A stretch of 64,000 nucleotides of DNA from Corynebacterium kalinowskii (GTDB lineage: Bacteria; Actinomycetota; Actinomycetes; Mycobacteriales; Mycobacteriaceae), in assembly GCF_009734385.1 (NCBI RefSeq), contig NZ_CP046452.1:1550001-1614000 (forward strand), written 5' to 3'. The notes beneath the pieces are model-generated. The model had not been told where the DNA came from. It saw only the letters and a list, made by a program, of their open reading frames with translations, and ran no database searches. The number at the start of each line of letters is the position of its first letter. Position 1 is the first letter of the stretch. The translations under genes and the position numbers were made by a program. Below are positions 45,996 through 55,188 of this stretch, piece after piece.

Positions 45996-46008
45996 CAGCG
46001 AGAAGAAA

Positions 46009-47235
46009 CTAGACGCGCTGGTTCTTTCCGACACAGACAACGCCACCAGCGGAGATGGTGAAGCGTGATGCATCACGCTCCAGATCCACACCGATGAATT
46101 CACCTTCGGAAACCACGACGTTCTTGTCCAAGATGGCATGGCGGACGACAGCGCCCTTACCGATTCGCACGCCCGGCATCAGCACGGAACCTTCGACCGT
46201 TGCGCCCTCTTCGACGATGACGTTGTTGGAGAGAACGGAGTTGCGCACAGTTCCGCCGGAGATGATGCAGCCGGAGGCAACCATGGACGACTGCGCGATA
46301 CCGCCCTGGACGAACTTAGCTGGCGGGAAGTTTCCTTCCTCCGTGGAGTGGATTGGCCAGCTTCGGTTGTACAGGTTGAAGATTGGCAAGACCGAGATGA
46401 GATCCATGTGAGCTTCGTAGAAAGCGTCGATGGTACCTACGTCGCGCCAGTAGCCCTTGTCGCGCCCGGTAGAACCTGGCACTTCATTGGCAGAGAAATC
46501 GTAGACGTTAGCGTCACCCTGCTCAACAAAGTAAGGGATGATGTCGCCACCCATGTCATGGGTGGAATCTTCCAAATCCTCATCCGCGGTCAGCGCAGCG
46601 ATGAGTGCATCGGTGGTGAAGATGTAGTTACCCATGGACGCAAAGGTCATCTCTGGGTCATCAGGAGTTCCAGGAGGATCGGATGGCTTTTCCAAGAATT
46701 CGGTGATGTGCCCATCATCGTCAGCCTTGATGCAGCCGAATGCGTGCGCTTCGGAGCGTGGGACACGAATGCCTGCGACGGTGACGGACTTGCCGGACTT
46801 GATGTGGTCATCAAGCATTTGGCGCGGATCCATGCGGTAAACGTGGTCTGCACCGAAAACGATGACGTAGTCAGGGTTCTCGTCGTAGATCAGGTTCAGG
46901 GACTGCAGGATTGCGTCGGCGGAGCCTGTGTACCACCGCTTACCCAGGCGCTGCTGCGCTGGAACTGGGGTGATGTACTGGCCGGTCAGGCCAGACAGCT
47001 GCCAGGACTGGGAGATGTGGCGGTCCAACGAGTGGGACTTGTACTGGGTCAGTACGCAGATTTGCATAAAACCTGCGTTGACCAAGTTAGACAGTACGAA
47101 GTCGACGAGTCGGTAGGTACCGCCGAATGGCACGGCTGGCTTGGCTCGGTCTGCCGTCAACGGGAACAGACGCTTGCCCTCGCCACCAGCGAGAACGATT
47201 GCTAGAACATGTGGTTGGCTTCTCACATCTTCCAA
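46009..47235 (-). CDS. glgC: Glucose-1-phosphate adenylyltransferase
   Basis: 408-residue nucleotidyltransferase making ADP-glucose, the glycogen precursor. N-terminal domain: [20 protein letters not shown] with [16 protein letters not shown], then [10 protein letters not shown] (metal-binding Asp) and C-terminal left-handed beta-helix ([33 protein letters not shown]) used in allostery and trimer contacts. Good family length. It is divergent from glgA, sharing about 180 bases of regulatory gap. Confidence 0.97.
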
Positions 47236-47432
47236 CGTATCTGCATTCGCGCGACCGCGCAGTGGGTCCGCTTCCCTTTTTGCTCACCAGGCGCACTGAC
47301 CTGCTAAAACGTCACAAAAGTTAAATTCATTAGCAGTGACGTGTGGGTTTCCCTCCCCCGTTTGTGAGTCGGATGACGTCGTGAAGCGAAAGTGTTCTGC
47401 AGCAAAAAGCGATCATGGCTACATTCGAAAGT

Positions 47433-48605
47433 ATGCGAGTTGGAATGATGACCAAGGAGTACCCACCAGAGATCTATGGTGGTGCTGGCGTACATATTGC
47501 GGAGCTCACCCGCTACATGCGTGAGATCACTGAGGTTGACGTGCATTGCATGGGCGCGCCTCGTGACGAAGCAAACGTCTATGTCCACGGCGTTGACCCA
47601 GAACTGAAGGATGCAAACGCGTCGATTCAGACTCTCTCCACCGGTTTGCGAATGGCCAACGCGGCAAACAATGTCGACGTTGTCCACTCTCACACTTGGT
47701 ACGCAGGTCTGGGCGGCCACCTGGCCGCCCGCCTGTACGACATCCCGCACGTTGCTACGGCACACTCCCTGGAGCCTCACCGCCCATGGAAGCGCGAGCA
47801 GCTCGGTGGCGGCTACGAGGTGTCCTCGTGGTCAGAGAAGAATGCGATGGAATACGCAGATGCGGTGATCGCGGTGTCTGCCCGCATGAAGGATTCCATC
47901 CTCGATGCTTACCCACGTATCGAACCGGACAAGGTGCGCATCGTACTCAACGGCATCGACACCCAGCTCTGGCAGCCACGCCCAACTTTCGAGGACAATC
48001 CAGAGTCTGTCCTCACCGAACTAGGCGTAGACCCGCAGAAGCCGATCGCGGCATTCGTCGGTCGCATCACCCGTCAGAAGGGTGTGGGCCACCTGATCAA
48101 GGCCGCCAAGCTTTTCGACGACGGCGTCCAGCTCGTCCTCTGCGCGGGCGCGCCAGATACCCCTGAGATCGCAGCCGAGACCAAGGCTTTGGTCGAGGAA
48201 CTCCAAGCGCAGCGCGACGGCGTGTTCTGGGTGCAGGACTTCCTGCCAAAGGACAAGATTCAGGAAATCCTCACCGCTGCCGATACCTTCGTGTGCCCAT
48301 CCATCTACGAGCCACTCGGCATCGTAAACCTGGAGGCCATGGCCTGTGGCACCGCAGTTGTCGCTTCCGATGTGGGAGGTATCCCTGAGGTTGTCGTCGA
48401 CGGCACTACCGGCACCCTCGTTCACTACGACGAAAGCGACGCTGAAGGCTTCGAACGCGGCATCGCTGAGGGCGTTAACAAGATGGTTGCCGATCGCGAA
48501 AACGCCAAGAAGATGGGCGAAGCTGGTCGCCAGCGCGCGGTGGACGACTTCTCCTGGGCAACTATCGCGCAACAGACAGTAGATGTTTACAAGTCCTTGA
48601 TGTAA
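47433..48605 (+). CDS. glgA: Glycogen synthase, actinobacterial GlgA
   Basis: GT4-type glucosyltransferase (390 residues) extending alpha-1,4-glucan from ADP-glucose. MRVGMMTKEYPPEIYGGAGVH is the family's N-terminus, so the start is taken at ATG 47433; ATG 47415 adds six residues. Glycosyltransferase motifs: KPIAAFVGRITRQKGVGHLI, FVCPSIYEPLGIVNLEAMACG (nucleotide-sugar contact), and the C-terminal EGTTGTLVHY-type region. Actinobacterial GlgA may also make maltose 1-phosphate. Divergent from glgC with which it forms the glycogen synthesis pair feeding GlgX-TreY-TreZ. Confidence 0.95.
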   Translation: MRVGMMTKEYPPEIYGGAGVHIAELTRYMREITEVDVHCMGAPRDEANVYVHGVDPELKDANASIQTLSTGLRMANAANNVDVVHSHTWYAGLGGHLAARLYDIPHVATAHSLEPHRPWKREQLGGGYEVSSWSEKNAMEYADAVIAVSARMKDSILDAYPRIEPDKVRIVLNGIDTQLWQPRPTFEDNPESVLTELGVDPQKPIAAFVGRITRQKGVGHLIKAAKLFDDGVQLVLCAGAPDTPEIAAETKALVEELQAQRDGVFWVQDFLPKDKIQEILTAADTFVCPSIYEPLGIVNLEAMACGTAVVASDVGGIPEVVVDGTTGTLVHYDESDAEGFERGIAEGVNKMVADRENAKKMGEAGRQRAVDDFSWATIAQQTVDVYKSLM

Positions 48606-48618
48606 GTTTCCCCGATGG

Positions 48619-48660
48619 AAAAGGCGTGGCCACAGCTAGTGGTCGCGCCTTTTCTTGTTT
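48619..48660 (+). terminator. Terminator after glgA
   Basis: AAAAGGCGTGGCCAC (48619-48633) and GTGGTCGCGCCTTTT (48639-48653) pair at 13 of 15 positions with a 5-base loop, then CTTGTTT. It ends 19 bases before the GH32 gene. Confidence 0.85.
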
Positions 48661-48666
48661 CGCCGC

Positions 48667-48672
48667 TAACCT
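48667..48672 (+). promoter_or_regulatory. Putative -10 (TAACCT) of GH32 gene
   Basis: TAACCT ends six bases before the ATG at 48679; no Shine-Dalgarno is present. The pattern is that of leaderless genes in the window. Confidence 0.4.
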
Positions 48673-48678
48673 GGGATC

Positions 48679-49977
48679 ATGAGTTCGCTGCGTCCTCGTT
48701 TCCATCTCACTCCTGCCGTGGGCAGGCTCAATGATCCGAATGGTGTGTACCTTGACGGCAACATCTTGCACGTCTACTACCAGCACGATCCGCAGTGGCC
48801 TTTCGGGGCGAAGCGGACGGGCTGGGGGCATGCCACCACAACCCGGGACGATCCCACGTGGCAGCACTTTCCGGATGCACTTGCTCCGTTGACCGACTAC
48901 GACCTGGACGGTTGCTACTCCGGATCAGCCGTGATGATCGATGGCGAACTTGAATTGTTCTATACCGGAAATGCGAAACCTGGCGGGGTGCGTCGCGCGA
49001 CCCAGAATTTGGTGACTGTATCCGGCCGGCACCGCTCGGACGGTGGTTCCCATATCCGACACCCACAAAATCCACTCATCGAAGGTCCAGCGGACGGGTT
49101 TACCGCGCACTACCGGGATCCGCACGTAACGTACCGAGACGGCGAATGGGTCATGGTACTTGGTGCCCAGCGTGCAGATGAAACGGGTCACGTAGCTCTG
49201 TATACATCACAGGATCGGCGCCACTGGGATTTCGCCGGCCCGATCGAGTTTGATCTCAGCAACGCTCGCCCAGGTTTCTCCCCAGATCTCATCCCGGGTG
49301 GGTATATGTGGGAATGCCCAAATCTCTTCTCAATGGTCGACGCACATGACGGACACACCTACGATGTTCTCCTATTCCTCCCCCAAGGCATGTCCGACCC
49401 CTATCCGGCTGCGGATTGCTGTGGCTACGTCGTCGGCCACCTCAACGGGAACTGTTTCACGGTCACGCGCGGATTCACCATCCTGGACTTCGGCCACGAG
49501 TTTTACGCGCCACAAATCGCGAGCAACAGCCCGGAACCGCTCCTGATCGGGTGGATGGGTCTCCCCGCCCAGGACGAACAGCCGACTAAAGCTGAAGGTT
49601 GGGTGCACGCGCTCACGATGGTGCGACGCCTCGAGCTTATCGACGGCCATGTGTGGCAGCAGCCGTGGGCGTCGATAAGCTCTGCCCCAGCAACTGCAGA
49701 CTACGGCCCCGTGGCGGTGTGGCAAGGCACCCTCCGAAGCGGAGACCGGCTAGTACTAACTGAAGGCGAAAGCCGCGAGCTGGCGGTTCTGCACTGTGGC
49801 ACCGAGCTTGAACTCACACGGGGTGCTGAGAGCCGAGTAGCGCCGAAGTTGTCGGAAGATGTGGAAGTTCTCGCCATCGTTGACGGGTCGTGCTTGGAGA
49901 TTTTCGCCGGTGGCATAGCGTTTTCTTCACGGGTGTTCTACCACGGTTCGAATGTTGGTTTTGCAACAGAAAAGTAG
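48679..49977 (+). CDS. scrB: GH32 beta-fructosidase (sucrose-6-phosphate hydrolase)
   Basis: 432-residue glycoside hydrolase family 32 enzyme, cytosolic (no signal). The three catalytic acids are visible: LNDPNG (nucleophile Asp19), YRDPHV (Asp147) and WECPNLF (acid/base Glu212). The C-terminal beta-sandwich (AIVDGSCLEIFAGGI) is present. Located directly before the sucrose PTS gene, so it most likely splits sucrose 6-phosphate to glucose 6-phosphate and fructose; plain invertase activity cannot be excluded. It starts with a -10 only six bases away. Part of an inserted cassette between glgA and the rlmA-like gene. Confidence 0.93.
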   Translation: MSSLRPRFHLTPAVGRLNDPNGVYLDGNILHVYYQHDPQWPFGAKRTGWGHATTTRDDPTWQHFPDALAPLTDYDLDGCYSGSAVMIDGELELFYTGNAKPGGVRRATQNLVTVSGRHRSDGGSHIRHPQNPLIEGPADGFTAHYRDPHVTYRDGEWVMVLGAQRADETGHVALYTSQDRRHWDFAGPIEFDLSNARPGFSPDLIPGGYMWECPNLFSMVDAHDGHTYDVLLFLPQGMSDPYPAADCCGYVVGHLNGNCFTVTRGFTILDFGHEFYAPQIASNSPEPLLIGWMGLPAQDEQPTKAEGWVHALTMVRRLELIDGHVWQQPWASISSAPATADYGPVAVWQGTLRSGDRLVLTEGESRELAVLHCGTELELTRGAESRVAPKLSEDVEVLAIVDGSCLEIFAGGIAFSSRVFYHGSNVGFATEK

Positions 49978-49988
49978 ACAAAGTCACA

Positions 49989-50004
49989 TAGAATAACGCT
50001 ATTC
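49989..50004 (+). promoter_or_regulatory. ptsS promoter -10 with palindrome
   Basis: TAGAAT (49989-49994) is a -10 candidate and GAATA-ACGC-TATTC (49991-50004) a palindrome over it. No convincing -35. Repressor control is plausible. Confidence 0.4.
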
Positions 50005-50031
50005 AAAAATAGGAACCTCCCATAGGATGAA

Positions 50032-50058
50032 GATAACAGGCAGAATCCCACTGTTATC
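50032..50058 (+). promoter_or_regulatory. GATAACAG-N11-CTGTTATC inverted repeat
   Basis: Perfect 8-base arms at 50032-50039 and 50051-50058. It lies between the proposed -10 and the SD (AGGAGGG, 50074-50080) of the PTS gene, so can act as operator or as 5'UTR hairpin. No binding protein is encoded next to it. Confidence 0.5.
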
Positions 50059-50084
50059 AGCACCACATCATCCAGGAGGGCGCT

Positions 50085-52031
50085 ATGGATCACAAAGCCG
50101 TAGCACAGCGAACTCTTGCCGCGCTCGGCGGCGAGTCCAATATTAAGGCAGCAGCGCACTGCGCGACGCGCCTTCGCCTTGTTCTTGACGATAAGTCCCG
50201 CATCAACCAGAAAGCCCTCGACGACGATCCCGATCTCAAGGGCACCTTCGAGGCTGGCGGCATGTACCAGATTGTCGTCGGGCCTGGCGACGTAGACAGC
50301 GTCTACGACGAGCTAACCAAACTCACCGGCACTCGTTCCGTCTCTACGGAAGAACTCAAAAGCGTTGCTGCACAGGAAGGCAACCCCTTCTCTCGGGCGA
50401 TCAAAATGCTCGCCGACATCTTTGTTCCGCTAATCCCAATCCTGGTTGGCGGCGGTCTCTTGATGGCCATCAACAACATCCTCACCGCGAAGGATCTGTT
50501 CGGCCCTCAGTCGCTGGTAGAAATGTTCCCAGCCATCACAGGCATGGCCGAGATGATTAACCTGCTGGCAGCGGCACCATTCGCCTTCCTACCGATCCTG
50601 GTCGGGTTCACCGCAACCAAGCGGTTCGGCGGTAACGAGTACCTCGGCGCTGGCATCGCAATGGCCATGGTTTTCCCAAGCCTCATCAACGGCTACGAGG
50701 TCGCAACCTCTATCCAAGAAGGCACGATGACCTACTGGGATCTCTTCGGTTTCCAGGTTGCCCAAGCTGGCTACCAAGGCACCGTTCTCCCGATCCTCCT
50801 GGTCGCTTGGATCCTAGCCACAGTTGAGAAATTCTTGCACTCCAAGCTCAAGGGCACTGTCGATTTCCTAGTCACACCAGTGCTGACCCTGCTGATCACA
50901 GGCTTTCTCACCTTCATCGCTGTGGGACCCGCCATGCGCTGGCTTGGCGACACCCTCGCGATCGGACTCCAAAATATCTACAGCTTCGCCGGCCCAGTCG
51001 GTGGCTTGATCTTTGGCTTGATTTACTCCCCGATCGTGATCACCGGCCTCCACCAGTCCTTCCCACCAGTTGAGCTGCAGCTCTTCGCCGCCGGCGGTTC
51101 CTTTATCTTCGCCACCGCCTCTGTGGCCAACGTCGCTCAAGGCGCCGCAGCACTCGCCGTCGGCCTGACCACCCGAGATGAAAAGCTCAAGGGTCTAGCG
51201 ACCGCATCCGGCTTGTCAGCCTGCTTCGGCATCACCGAACCCGCCATCTTCGGTGTAAACCTTCGCCTTCGCTGGCCGTTCTACATCGCCATGGGCACTG
51301 CTGGCATCACCGGCGCCATGATCGCACTGTTCAAGGTCAAGGCCATCGCACTGGGCGCAGCCGGCTTCATCGGTTTCGTTTCCATCCGCGCCCAAGACAT
51401 TCCGATGTTCTTGGTGTGTGTAGCCACCTCGTTCGTGATCTCCTTCGTCGCCTCCTACGCATGGGCACTACACCTGCGCAAAACCCAGGGTTCGCTTGAC
51501 CCAGATGCCGCACCTGCCACTGATCTCGCTCCGGCAGCCCTTCCCGAGGTAGCTGGCGAGTGGCAAATTGCTAGCCCACTCACGGGTGCGCTGATCCCGC
51601 TGGAAGATGTCTCCGACGAGATGTTTGCCTCCGGCAAGCTGGGCAAGGGCTTTGCTGTGGTGCCAACCGTTGGCGAGCTTCGCTCCCCCGTCGACGGCGT
51701 TGTCAAAGTCGCGTTTCCTACCGGTCACGCCTTCGCCGTCCGCAGCGACGATGGCGTTGAGATTCTCATGCATATCGGCTTTGATACCGTTTCGCTGAAG
51801 GGCACCGGATTTACGCCGGCTGTCAAGAAGGGAGACGCGGTCCATCGCGGAGACCTCCTGGGCACTTTCGATATTGACGCCATCAAGCAAGCCGGATTCG
51901 ACACCACAACCCCAGTCGTGGTCTCAAACTGGAAGAAACTAGGCCCAGTCACCCCAGCAACGCCTGGCGCTATCACCATCGGCGATCTCGCAGCGAATGT
52001 CGCACCAGCAGCAACGGCAGACGTTAACTAG
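50085..52031 (+). CDS. ptsS: Sucrose-type PTS permease EIIBCA
   Basis: 648-residue fused PTS enzyme II. EIIB (residues 1-80): the phospho-Cys in AAHCATRLRLVL with later GGMYQIVVG. EIIC (residues 100-455), a glucose-superfamily membrane domain with about ten hydrophobic segments (FVPLIPILVGGGLLMAI, FFITEPAIFGVNLR-like ITEPAIFGVNLRLRWPF). EIIA (about 490-640): FAVRSDDGVEILMHIGFDTVSL with the phospho-His. Order B-C-A agrees with the corynebacterial sucrose permease. It imports and phosphorylates sucrose. Strong SD (AGGAGGG) before ATG. Surrounded by two GH32 genes. Confidence 0.95.
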   Translation: MDHKAVAQRTLAALGGESNIKAAAHCATRLRLVLDDKSRINQKALDDDPDLKGTFEAGGMYQIVVGPGDVDSVYDELTKLTGTRSVSTEELKSVAAQEGNPFSRAIKMLADIFVPLIPILVGGGLLMAINNILTAKDLFGPQSLVEMFPAITGMAEMINLLAAAPFAFLPILVGFTATKRFGGNEYLGAGIAMAMVFPSLINGYEVATSIQEGTMTYWDLFGFQVAQAGYQGTVLPILLVAWILATVEKFLHSKLKGTVDFLVTPVLTLLITGFLTFIAVGPAMRWLGDTLAIGLQNIYSFAGPVGGLIFGLIYSPIVITGLHQSFPPVELQLFAAGGSFIFATASVANVAQGAAALAVGLTTRDEKLKGLATASGLSACFGITEPAIFGVNLRLRWPFYIAMGTAGITGAMIALFKVKAIALGAAGFIGFVSIRAQDIPMFLVCVATSFVISFVASYAWALHLRKTQGSLDPDAAPATDLAPAALPEVAGEWQIASPLTGALIPLEDVSDEMFASGKLGKGFAVVPTVGELRSPVDGVVKVAFPTGHAFAVRSDDGVEILMHIGFDTVSLKGTGFTPAVKKGDAVHRGDLLGTFDIDAIKQAGFDTTTPVVVSNWKKLGPVTPATPGAITIGDLAANVAPAATADVN

Positions 52032-52067
52032 CAACCTTTTCCAGTAAGCTCCCCAGTCGGCCCGAAA

Positions 52068-52113
52068 TCGGTACGCTGGTTGTATCCCTTCCAGGGCGCA
52101 GCCAGCGTACCGA
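52068..52113 (+). promoter_or_regulatory. Stem-loop between ptsS and GH32-like gene
   Basis: CGGTACGCTGG (52069-52079) and CCAGCGTACCG (52102-52112) pair perfectly, extending one pair outward, around a 22-base loop. A weak T-rich stretch follows (CATTTTCTT). It may terminate part of the ptsS transcripts or stabilise them. Confidence 0.55.
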
Positions 52114-52157
52114 AGTCATTTTCTTAATGGACCCGAGGTCAGCAGAAGGAATCGACC

Positions 52158-53630
52158 ATGAGCTACTACACCCACAGGCCTGAACTCCACATCACCGCAG
52201 AGCGAGGCATCCTCAACGCTCCCGCAGGAGTACTGCGCAGTGGCAACCAGTGGCACGTGTTCCACCAATACCAGCCTGAGCTCGATGCTCCTGCCCGCTG
52301 GGCGCACCAATTCGCCGATCAGCTCCCCTTCGATTGGGACATTTGCGACGACGCCATCGCCCCCGAAGGCGACGAAATCAAAGTGCGCGCGGGAGCCGTC
52401 ATCGGCACGCGGAGCGGATCTACCGAGCTCTATTTCACCTCCATCAACCAGGAGGGCACGTCCATCCACGTCGCCGAAGTTGAGGACATCGATGCCTCGC
52501 TGGAAGAAGTTTCTGATGACGCGTCAGCCGTCGATAAGCATGTGCGCCGTGTGGGTCAGGTGGTCGGCAACCGGGACGGCTTCGTCGACTTCCGCTCCCC
52601 TTGTGTCGTACCGCGCTGGGACTATGACGAAGTGAGCGGCGAGCCCCTCAAAGGCTGGCTCATGCTCGCGGTTTCCGGCGACCAGGACAAGCCACAACTA
52701 ATGGTGCTGGATTCCTATGATCGACGTGAGTGGAGCCTTCGTGGCCCACTCACCTTCGATGGCACCACAGGCCTAGAAGCAGTCGAACGCTTGGTGAGTC
52801 CGCGCATCATCCGCCTGTCGGACGAGGTCGACGGCCAGATGTACGACGTTTTGCTGGTAACCATCGAACACGAAGGCATCGACATTTCCGGCTACCTGAT
52901 CGGTCAGCTGACGGGCTCGACCTTCACCGTGAAAACCTCGTTCACGCGCCTGGACTTCGGCCACGATTTCACCCGCCCGCGCAACACAAATGTCAGCCTG
53001 GCGGATCAAACCGACCTCCCTGATTACAGCTCCGCCAACATCTTTGGCCTGATGAATGGCATCGGACGCTACGACGACCCAAGCCAGCACCTCAGTCTTG
53101 CAGAGGAAGGCTGGGCCAATTGTCTCTCCCTGCCACGCGTTACCACCTTGCAGGATGGCCTGATCTACCAAACCCCGACCCCAGGGCTGCCGGCCGCAAT
53201 TCGCACCTCCGAGCGTGCCTGCATGCTCACCGCGCTTATCGACGCCTCCGCCGCCGACGCCGAGGTGCAAGTGGAGCTTATCGACGACCAAGGCCGCACC
53301 GCCGCCGTAGTCTGCCATCAGGGCGACCTACTGACGTTCGATCGGTCGATGAACCCAAACCACGAGGGCGATCACATCGCCGAGGGCCCACTGATCGCGG
53401 CGGACACTGATGCTCTCACGATTATCGTGGACGGTTCCGCGGTGGAAGTCTTTGCCGATGGTGGCGCGATGACGATGGCGAGCCGACTTTATGCGCAGTC
53501 ACGCATCGTGGAGTTCCGCACAACTGCCGTGGGCTCTGCTGTCATTGAACAGCAAAGCTCCACGTTCCCGCTGGACTTTCCAAAGTTCCACGGTATGGAG
53601 CCAGCACTGCCTGGCGAGGATGAGCTTTAG
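52158..53630 (+). CDS. GH32-like protein lacking all catalytic acids (pseudoenzyme)
   Basis: 490-residue protein with a GH32 layout: a five-blade propeller (residues 1-330) and C-terminal beta-sandwich (VDGSAVEVFADGG), and late motif SLPRVTTLQDGLIYQTP. The catalytic acids are replaced: nucleophile motif NDPNG reads NAPAG (Ala21), RDP reads RSP (Ser147) and the acid/base ECP reads VSP (Val213). Alignment with scrB is in register at the second site. Hence no hydrolase activity is expected; sugar binding or a scaffold/regulatory role would be inferred. Intact 490-codon reading frame with normal codon use argues against a pseudogene. SD AGAAGGA precedes the ATG. It overlaps the rlmA-like gene by four bases. 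Confidence 0.85.
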   Translation: MSYYTHRPELHITAERGILNAPAGVLRSGNQWHVFHQYQPELDAPARWAHQFADQLPFDWDICDDAIAPEGDEIKVRAGAVIGTRSGSTELYFTSINQEGTSIHVAEVEDIDASLEEVSDDASAVDKHVRRVGQVVGNRDGFVDFRSPCVVPRWDYDEVSGEPLKGWLMLAVSGDQDKPQLMVLDSYDRREWSLRGPLTFDGTTGLEAVERLVSPRIIRLSDEVDGQMYDVLLVTIEHEGIDISGYLIGQLTGSTFTVKTSFTRLDFGHDFTRPRNTNVSLADQTDLPDYSSANIFGLMNGIGRYDDPSQHLSLAEEGWANCLSLPRVTTLQDGLIYQTPTPGLPAAIRTSERACMLTALIDASAADAEVQVELIDDQGRTAAVVCHQGDLLTFDRSMNPNHEGDHIAEGPLIAADTDALTIIVDGSAVEVFADGGAMTMASRLYAQSRIVEFRTTAVGSAVIEQQSSTFPLDFPKFHGMEPALPGEDEL

Positions 53631-54493
53631 GCTAGGCGCAGGCGAGTGATCTGAGCCTTCGCGGTCACGATCATCTTTTCCGGGAGCGCCGCAATGCGGC
53701 GTTCTAGATCCTCTGCCTCAATGTGTCGCGCAGACGGGCTCATGCCAATCTGTGCTGCGATCGATGCCCGATCGAGCTCCATCGGGAATTCGATGACCTC
53801 GTCCTCACCAATGCGCTCCAAGAACCCCGCAGATTTTTCCATCAGATGCTCGATCTTTCCAGGCTCGACGCCGATGATTCCCAAGGGCTCGCGGAGTTCG
53901 TCGAGGTGCCCCGGGTGCGCGGTCAGCACAATAACCTGACCCTTTTCTTTCAAGATCCGGGCGAATTCTTCAGGGTTCCGAGGTGCGAAGATAACAGTGA
54001 TGACATCTACTGCACGATCCCGAATGGGCAGCCGCTGCCAAGCGTCTGCGACGACGGCCCCGGCGCGCGGATGACACTTGGCAAGGTGCTTAGCAGCCGG
54101 TACTGAGATATCAATGCCAACGCCACGGGATTCGGCAACATCGTCTAGAGCGTGCGCGAGATAGTAGCCGGTACCAGCACCAATTTCGACGATTGCTGGG
54201 CGATCCTCGTCGGCGACATTTGCCTCATCCAACGCCTGATTGATGGTGGCAGACACTGCCTCCACAAACGGCGCGAAGTAGCCACCGGACAGAAAAGTCT
54301 CCCGGGATGCGATCATGTCCGCGTCGTCGCCGGTGTGCTTAAGTCCCTCGCCTCCGGCTAAGGTCACGTAGCCTTGGCGGGCGATGTCAAAGGAATGTCC
54401 GGAATCAGAGACAATGCGACGATCGTCGTCGGTAAGCTGCAGCGCTGAACCGTCAGTAGGATCGGCAAGAATATCTATCACGTCACGCAGCAT
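53627..54493 (-). CDS. RlmA-like rRNA guanine methyltransferase
   Basis: 288-residue class I methyltransferase like RlmA(I/II), which methylates a guanine in 23S rRNA helix 35. Zn-finger cysteines of classical RlmA are not seen near the N-terminus, which instead has GHSFDIARQGYVTLAG (RlmA-type). The SAM part: AIVEIGAGTGYYLAHAL, GVGIDISVPAAKHLAK, and VVADAWQRLPIRDRAVDVITVIFAPRN. C-terminal region ends in KMIVTAKAQITRLRLA. It resembles the 23S rRNA m1G methyltransferases of actinobacteria that give tylosin-type tolerance, though function is inferred. Convergent with the GH32-like gene. Confidence 0.82.
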   Translation of the reverse strand: MLRDVIDILADPTDGSALQLTDDDRRIVSDSGHSFDIARQGYVTLAGGEGLKHTGDDADMIASRETFLSGGYFAPFVEAVSATINQALDEANVADEDRPAIVEIGAGTGYYLAHALDDVAESRGVGIDISVPAAKHLAKCHPRAGAVVADAWQRLPIRDRAVDVITVIFAPRNPEEFARILKEKGQVIVLTAHPGHLDELREPLGIIGVEPGKIEHLMEKSAGFLERIGEDEVIEFPMELDRASIAAQIGMSPSARHIEAEDLERRIAALPEKMIVTAKAQITRLRLA

Positions 54494-54515
54494 GCGCGTA
54501 CCTCATCTCTCAATA

Positions 54516-54558
54516 GGGAAAACGGCACCACAACAACGATAGCGTTGTCGTGGTGCCG
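54516..54558 (-). terminator. Terminator after DUF3117 gene
   Basis: CGGCACCACAACAACG (54523-54538) pairs with 54543-54558 except for one position, loop 4 bases, and the reverse strand continues TTTTCCC. It ends the DUF3117 unit just upstream of the rlmA-like start. Confidence 0.88.
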
Positions 54559-54577
54559 ATAGAAACAAAATTGCTGT

Positions 54578-54745
54578 TTAGCTAGAGACTTCTACGAGCA
54601 GAGCTCCCAGCTCCGCCGCCTCTTCTTGGTTGAGCTCTACGACGAGACGGCCACCGCCATCAGTCGGGATGCGCATCACAATCTTGCGACCTTCGATAAC
54701 CGCTTCCATCGGCCCATTGCCGGTCCTCGGCTTCATAGCTGCCAC
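54578..54745 (-). CDS. DUF3117 family small protein
   Basis: 55-residue protein starting MAAMKPRTGNGPMEAVIEGR, the conserved opening of DUF3117, and containing KIVMRIPTDGGGRLVVEL and EEAAELGALL. The family is small, actinobacterial and of unknown function. GTG start at 54745 with GAGGAG upstream; the ATG at 54736 is three codons in. It is in the same place relative to glgA/glgC, DivIVA and gpgS as in mycobacteria (Rv1211 position, from memory). A terminator follows. Confidence 0.88.
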   Translation of the reverse strand: MAAMKPRTGNGPMEAVIEGRKIVMRIPTDGGGRLVVELNQEEAAELGALLVEVSS

Positions 54746-54876
54746 AATCAGTCAGCTCCTCACTTTAAAAGCTAATGTTCTTAACTGCCCATTCTAGGTG
54801 ACTTTCTTCACCGAAGGTACGGACCCAAGTCAAAACTCCAGGTCAAGAGCACTTTTACCATCGGGTAGACGACGGA

Positions 54877-55188
54877 TCACAACTCAGTGGCTGACGTTTC
54901 TTTCAGCGTGTTTTTTACACCCTGGACGGAGCGAAGCGCACGAATCTCATCGGTCAGCTCGGCAATCACGGCATCTACTTGATCCTGTCGATAGCCACGA
55001 ATCACCGTGTCGAAGCGAACAGCTTCGAAGTCAGAACGAGCCAAGGCAGCAGCGTTCAGCTTTTGGAGCGAAACGTTATCCACGATCGGAGGCATCACTT
55101 CGCCCCGCCCGAACGCCTTACCAAAGACCACCGTGAGCAGTGCCACGACAACGGCTAAGCCAACGATATACATGAGCCAAGTAAGCAT
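54877..55188 (-). CDS. DivIVA-domain membrane protein
   Basis: 103-residue protein: N-terminal hydrophobic segment (LMYIVGLAVVVALLTVVFG), then a DivIVA-type helix region (DFEAVRFDTVIRGYRQDQVDAVIAELTDEI), in which FDTVIRGYRQDQVD is the DivIVA signature that binds the membrane in cell-pole proteins. It is much shorter than DivIVA/Wag31. AAAGGTG upstream of ATG 55188. Probably a cell envelope or pole factor; placed after gpgS as in related actinobacteria. Confidence 0.86.
   Translation of the reverse strand: MLTWLMYIVGLAVVVALLTVVFGKAFGRGEVMPPIVDNVSLQKLNAAALARSDFEAVRFDTVIRGYRQDQVDAVIAELTDEIRALRSVQGVKNTLKETSATEL

Follow-up and report, generated by a model that had tools for sequence, protein, structure and literature searches.

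GH32L, a pseudo-hydrolase of the GH32 fold that has lost its catalytic triad and is maintained in most of the genus Corynebacterium

What keeps a relative of sucrose hydrolases in a genome after it has lost every catalytic acid? The question is raised by a 64,000-nucleotide stretch of the Corynebacterium kalinowskii genome (contig NZ_CP046452.1, positions 1,550,001 to 1,614,000; the window), in which a gene for such a protein, here named GH32L, lies beside the gene for the sucrose permease. A first-pass annotation had proposed that GH32L is selected for a non-catalytic job: sugar sensing, a scaffold or modulation of ScrB/PtsS. Here, we report that GH32L is a genus-wide pseudo-hydrolase, with a complete predicted fold, descent as one clade, a triad lost in every scorable sequence and a history of purifying selection. 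The gene and the motifs discussed below are:

52158..53630, + strand: GH32L, catalytically dead GH32 homologue of 490 amino acids (open reading frame, Pfam, predicted structure)
52215..52229, + strand: NAPAG, residues 20-24, where the nucleophile Asp and the second Asn of NDPNG have been lost (alignments)
52593..52601, + strand: RSP, residues 146-148, where the transition-state Asp of RDP has been lost (alignments)
52794..52805, + strand: VSPR, residues 213-216, where the acid/base Glu has been lost and a new, near-invariant Arg216 follows (alignments, conservation)
52974..52982, + strand: RPR, residues 273-275, with near-invariant Arg273 and Arg275 in GH32L where ScrB has Ala and Gln (conservation)

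The frame begins with ATG and runs through 490 codons with no internal stop, long and undamaged as first described. Both domain profiles of the GH32 fold family match above their curated cut-offs, PF00251 (GH32N) at residues 11-340 (7.8e-21, 75.4 bits against 22.1) and PF08244 (GH32C) at residues 350-458 (1.6e-08, 35.2 bits against 21.9); the second match agrees with the claim that the C-terminal sandwich is kept. Structure prediction gives a five-bladed propeller followed by a C-terminal beta-sandwich. The GH32N match starts at residue 11 and therefore leaves no space for a signal peptide; none is visible, which suggests a cytosolic protein. The sole other match to GH32L in its 2.51 Mb single-contig genome is the neighbouring scrB. 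In locus L049 and its relatives, which carry LVTP instead of FRSP, a long C-terminal helix is predicted (residues 469-499 of the L049 model) that the window GH32L does not have.

Active beta-fructosidases carry Asp, Asp and Glu in the motifs NDPNG, RDP and ECP; opposite these residues GH32L has Ala21, Ser147 and Val213. The first-pass annotation had read NAPAG, RSP and VSP against the three motifs of the neighbouring scrB and had placed the second site at residue 147 of both proteins. The same register was recovered by BLASTP against the window ScrB (28% identity over 471 columns), by profile-profile alignment against 23 Corynebacterium ScrB proteins (probability 100, E 1.8e-61) and by HMMER alignments to solved GH32 chains. 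No alignment that places acids at the catalytic sites was found among the BLASTP, homologue, profile-profile and solved-chain alignments run. A survey of 186 distinct homologues was compiled from 120 database homologues and proteins from fetched loci, leaving out duplicates, the scrB locus L002 and all rows shorter than 430 residues other than L041 and L043. None of the 186 had D or E in any triad column (two rows were gapped at the first column and one at the third), the triplet being ASV in 152, ATF in 17, ATY in 7 and, in the remaining 10, less common non-acidic forms or gaps. Among the best 120 of 281 database matches the first motif was xAPAG in 106, xAPAA in 10, another form in 2 and gapped in 2, and the second was RSP in all 120. 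Since no homologue carries an acid in these columns, the substitutions are not a sequencing error.

Using a 65-row profile at E <= 1e-80, GH32L was found in 218 of 242 Corynebacterium genomes, with one match in each; the profile scores the window ScrB at 2e-56, so this threshold separates the two proteins. The gene was absent at that threshold from the other 24 genomes (20 listed, 4 by elimination). A sample of the order (298 genomes, 76 genera) gave three matches at E <= 1e-30, all in Corynebacterium, and in a sample of the family (351 genomes) just three weak matches, 1.4e-15 to 7.8e-8, fell outside the genus. The named relatives among the best 120 of 281 database matches are nearly all from Corynebacterium and include a C. 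glutamicum protein (P0033); counter to a restriction to the genus, one of these 120 (P0011, 63% identical to GH32L) comes from a record labelled Staphylococcus chromogenes, which may reflect either contamination or gene transfer.

In a tree of 67 GH32 proteins, GH32L formed one clade (support 100/100) on a stem of 1.65 changes per site, its place beside the ScrB clade of Corynebacterium being modestly supported (87/68). Some branches of this tree, those of outgroup rows and of L150, are long, and six rows, including two GH32L, have an odd composition. Most simply, the triad was lost once, before the sampled GH32L lineages split. The ratio of nonsynonymous to synonymous substitution rates (dN/dS) was 0.02-0.10 in six of seven GH32L pairs and 0.23 in the remaining one, and the frame was open in nearly all listed genome matches of the GH32L protein query, an internal TGA being present in one genome (G100). 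Thus GH32L is under purifying selection, its orthologues are not decaying rapidly, and these two results rule out a pseudogene. The intact frame, the complete fold, the lost triad and purifying selection together indicate that GH32L is maintained for a role in which hydrolysis very probably has no part. To this extent the initial idea of selection for a non-catalytic job stands; its link to ScrB and PtsS fails as a general explanation, as detailed below.

Conservation within the protein bears on what this role may be. Comparison of 30 GH32L with 28 ScrB proteins gave 22 columns in which one residue is conserved to 90% or more in GH32L and occurs in no more than 10% of the ScrB. Residues at or near the motifs that are fixed in GH32L and differ from ScrB include Ala21 (28 of 30), Ala23 (30), Ala78 (29), Arg216 (29), Arg273 (29), Arg275 (30) and Asn321 (28). 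The fructose-site residues of NDPN, YSG, RDP and ECP are replaced; Gln37 and Trp48, which we take to be fructose-site residues in the Thermotoga invertase, are conserved in 29 and 28 of the 30. Relative to the rest of the propeller, the motif segments of GH32L are about as constrained as those of catalytic ScrB. Over eight motif segments, hand-chosen after the alignment was seen, the mean of (Arg+Lys)-(Asp+Glu) was +4.2 (2 to 7) in the 30 GH32L against +0.7 (-3 to 3) in 31 motif-intact relatives, about 3 of this shift being the lost triad itself; the charge of the whole protein runs the opposite way (-40 against -24). The constrained segments and the charge shift argue for a former pocket that may still be in use, with an anionic ligand.

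The genomic surroundings of GH32L were compared in 42 loci, two initial ones and 40 picked for spread. The window locus comprises the following features:

46009..47235, - strand: glgC, glucose-1-phosphate adenylyltransferase, divergent from glgA
47415..48605, + strand: glgA, glycogen synthase of the glgA_Coryne subfamily, usually found upstream of GH32L in Corynebacterium
48617..48655, + strand: strong hairpin with a T-rich end directly after glgA, likely the glgA terminator
48679..49977, + strand: scrB, GH32 protein with intact NDPNG, RDP and ECP, probably an inserted neighbour
50085..52031, + strand: ptsS, sucrose-specific phosphotransferase system (PTS) EIIBCA, probably an inserted neighbour
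52032..52157, + strand: ptsS-GH32L intergenic region, holding a 20-base leader stretch common to locus L066
52068..52113, + strand: 16-bp hairpin between ptsS and GH32L, terminator-like or operator-like (intergenic z-score -4.9)
53627..54493, - strand: RlmA-like 23S rRNA guanine-N1 methyltransferase, convergent, overlapping the end of GH32L by 4 bp (below all curated cut-offs)

The RlmA-like methyltransferase lies downstream of GH32L in all 42 loci, with other genes between in some (L072, L088, L102, L103). Upstream, within the fetched stretch, glgC-glgA without sucrose genes was found in 32 loci, scrB-ptsS in 3 and neither in 7. The gap between glgA and GH32L was under 60 bp in 12 of the 32 glgA loci; this count alone was used, since the larger gaps of L072 and L103 are mis-measured, the glgA match crossing an upstream stop, and the gap of L091 depends on a late start codon. 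A second recurrent neighbour is alsD, encoding alpha-acetolactate decarboxylase, for which 147 of the 242 genomes, the window genome not among them, gave a match at E <= 1e-30. In nine of the 42 loci (L003, L068-L071, L079, L096, L098, L099) alsD precedes GH32L in the same orientation. In 36 genomes picked by eye, mostly for apparent adjacency and hence giving no rate, alsD stood 10-545 bp upstream of GH32L in 29, often at gaps of 10-50 bp, and not so in 7. Thus, alsD adjoins GH32L in at least 29 of the 147 alsD genomes and is located elsewhere in many others.

We consider it an even bet that GH32L is a former sucrose hydrolase which now resides in the cytosol, binds a small anionic ligand and acts on enzymes of carbon storage and overflow as their sensor or allosteric partner. 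The cytosolic protein would no longer split fructosides, and its arginine-enriched former sucrose pocket would hold the ligand, most likely a sugar phosphate or a sugar nucleotide. Less certainly, ligand binding might make GH32L a sensor or allosteric partner of storage and overflow enzymes rather than a component devoted to the sucrose PTS; these partners are suggested because glgC/glgA and alsD are the recurrent neighbours. In its most specific form, for which we hold out modest hope at best, the proposal has GH32L reading a phosphorylated sugar or sugar nucleotide in the Arg-rich pocket and regulating GlgC/GlgA and AlsD across most of Corynebacterium, including C. glutamicum. If the sensor proposal were true, GH32L would be the founding member of a class of cytosolic metabolite sensors derived from a sucrose hydrolase.

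Several points weigh against this proposal. The charge comparison is partly circular, given hand-chosen segments and lost acids that alone account for most of the shift. That the new arginines line the pocket is read from their place in the GH32 motifs and not from coordinates, and Arg77 and Arg146 are lost in the branch of GH32L with LVTP instead of FRSP. Propeller strands are conserved anyway, so conserved segments are no proof of ligand binding. The genomic association is loose as well. At E <= 1e-60, 202 of the 242 genomes have glgA: it occurs in 180 of the 218 GH32L carriers and is missing from 38, against 22 and 2 of the 24 non-carriers (Fisher p 0.39, relatedness ignored); these and the PtsS counts below were hand-copied from the listed matches, with unlisted negatives assigned by elimination. 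Glycogen is not the sole context of GH32L, as 38 of the 40 genomes without glgA keep it, which rules out a strict dependence on glycogen synthesis, and in 22 genomes glgA occurs where GH32L does not. Mapped on a quick gene tree built from the 42 GH32L loci, the state of glgA requires five changes.

The same cavity could instead house a new enzyme, in which fructoside hydrolysis was exchanged for another reaction by way of Arg216, Arg273, Arg275, Asn321, Glu73 and Cys63. Such a change would fit the 22 GH32L-specific columns and the conserved motif segments; we judge it unlikely, as the old catalytic columns hold no acid and no neighbour of GH32L hints at a substrate. We know of no clan GH-J enzyme that works without its catalytic acids, which also counts against this idea. 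Distinctly unlikely is a pure scaffold, acting through protein contacts alone with no ligand in the old pocket. Propeller surfaces suit contacts, and dead enzymes often work in this way, a view given for the plant protein Nin88 in PMC3713406; the motif segments of GH32L, however, are as constrained relative to the rest of the propeller as those of catalytic ScrB.

The position beside the sucrose permease, to which the first-pass annotation had drawn attention, is real in the window and not a habit of the family. A role specific to sucrose, in which GH32L would act as a sensor of sucrose 6-phosphate or as a modulator of ScrB or PtsS, appears decidedly improbable. In its favour, GH32L adjoins ptsS in the window and the Corynebacterium ScrB clade in the tree. 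Moreover, PtsS stands beside GH32L in at least eight genomes (G000, G025, G041, G055, G190, G191, G192 and G196, coordinates read by eye), scrB-ptsS being directly upstream or one gene away, with alsD between PtsS and GH32L in G025, G055, G191 and G192. A close PtsS homologue (best match E <= 6e-135) is weakly enriched among GH32L carriers (78 of 218 against 3 of 24, Fisher p 0.02, relatedness ignored). Against such a role, this homologue occurs in 81 of 242 genomes and is missing from 140 of the 218 carriers, and the fructose-site residues of the four motifs are replaced. Together with glgC-glgA as the usual neighbours, these counts rule out membership of a sucrose operon as the general case. 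GH32L needs neither a glgA nor a PtsS partner, 25 carriers having neither.

The arrangement of the locus points the same way. In L066, the closest relative among the loci compared, GH32L lies 181 bp after glgA without scrB-ptsS, its leader shares GAAATCGGTACGCTGGTTGT with the window ptsS-GH32L gap, and its genome has no PtsS homologue better than 3.4e-76. The next relative, L065, lacks both scrB-ptsS at this locus and the shared leader stretch. The strong 16-bp hairpin separates ptsS from GH32L; one of its arms overlaps the shared stretch, and the other was not found in L066. The simplest account is that scrB-ptsS was placed between the glgA terminator and the GH32L leader. Counter to a recent insertion, the ScrB proteins of the window, G025, G196, G191 and G192 form one clade (support 100/99), which an old scrB-ptsS cassette at the GH32L locus, lost many times, would also fit. 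An old sucrose link of GH32L itself, repeatedly lost, is conceivable because of that clade and of scrB-ptsS upstream in at least eight genomes. As a general explanation the sucrose-specific reading does not hold, and the maintained pseudo-GH32 of most of the genus is real. The window ScrB is itself short (432 amino acids) and has no Pfam GH32C match, with its catalytic motifs intact. A simple motif scan of window positions 46000-55000 gave no GlxR-type sites, and a scan of 48500-54600 gave no sigma-70 promoter-like sites.

That GH32L is a functionless, decaying relic of an scrB copy, as its absence from 24 genomes, the internal TGA in G100 and the single dN/dS of 0.23 might be taken to say, is hardly credible, being already contradicted by the selection data, the open frames in nearly all listed matches and the presence of the gene in 218 of 242 genomes.

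Among known systems, ScrB is the nearest. The best NCBIfam match of GH32L is the sucrose-6-phosphate hydrolase family scrB_fam (TIGR01322), whose fold it shares; its 91.4 bits lie below the cut-off of 356.4, a weak test in that the motif-intact window ScrB reaches only 280.1. In contrast to ScrB, GH32L is devoid of all three catalytic acids and forms a separate clade. Defective invertases of plants are likewise GH32 proteins that do not split sucrose, as is predicted for GH32L. According to PMC3713406, they are possible regulators and are never affected in the catalytic triad, and PMC11821009 states that many plant acid-invertase genes lack NDPN, a loss of one motif, and that binding to active invertases or to their inhibitors may be how tobacco Nin88 acts. 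The plant type, with an intact triad and a defect at Asp239/Trp47-type residues in both sources, does not describe GH32L, which has lost the triad itself; Nin88 is described there as apoplastic, whereas GH32L looks cytosolic. No paper on the corynebacterial protein was found in the open-licence literature, where absence is weak evidence.

Some records name GH32L sucrose-6-phosphate hydrolase, beta-fructosidase or beta-fructofuranosidase (e.g. in C. kutscheri and C. diphtheriae), very probably in error. With its entire triad gone and purifying selection keeping it in most of a genus, this GH32 clade clearly exemplifies a natural pseudo-glycosidase, and its member in C. glutamicum, an easy laboratory and industrial model, opens the role of a dead sugar hydrolase to direct experiment.

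The pairing with alsD recurs with three kinds of GH32 protein. Besides GH32L, these are:

L139 4015-5934, L140 4096-6117 and L142 2185-4191: GH32 homologues with catalytic motifs in the glgA-methyltransferase slot; L141 4466-6227: frame-split form
L150 2754-4322, - strand: GH32 homologue of the C. kroppenstedtii type, without the nucleophile
L150 4322-5086, - strand: alsD abutting that homologue

In L139, L140 and L142, where GH32L is absent, alsD precedes a slot GH32 with NDPNG, RDP and ECP; in L141 it is followed by the frame-split GH32, with the motifs in two frames, and the coordinates of G168 show the same order as in the first three. The slot GH32 with catalytic motifs falls outside GH32L plus ScrB in the tree (fork support 87/68), and a tree forcing it together with GH32L was not rejected (p-AU 0.389), so that descent of GH32L from such a slot GH32 is conceivable. 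L124-L129, L132 and L135 have alsD in the slot and gave no GH32 match there.

Genomes of the C. kroppenstedtii type lack GH32L and carry another GH32 homologue, which in L150 lies beside a phosphoenolpyruvate carboxykinase gene. The L150 protein resembles GH32L in being corynebacterial, in having lost the nucleophile Asp (MAPHG) and RDP, and in its adjacency to alsD; it differs in grouping with ScrB on a long branch, in keeping the Glu (WEYP) and in having the carboxykinase gene in place of glgA, and thus apparently represents an independent loss of catalysis. The same alsD-GH32 order was seen by coordinates in G087, G125 and G202, the GH32 motifs being inspected in L150 alone.
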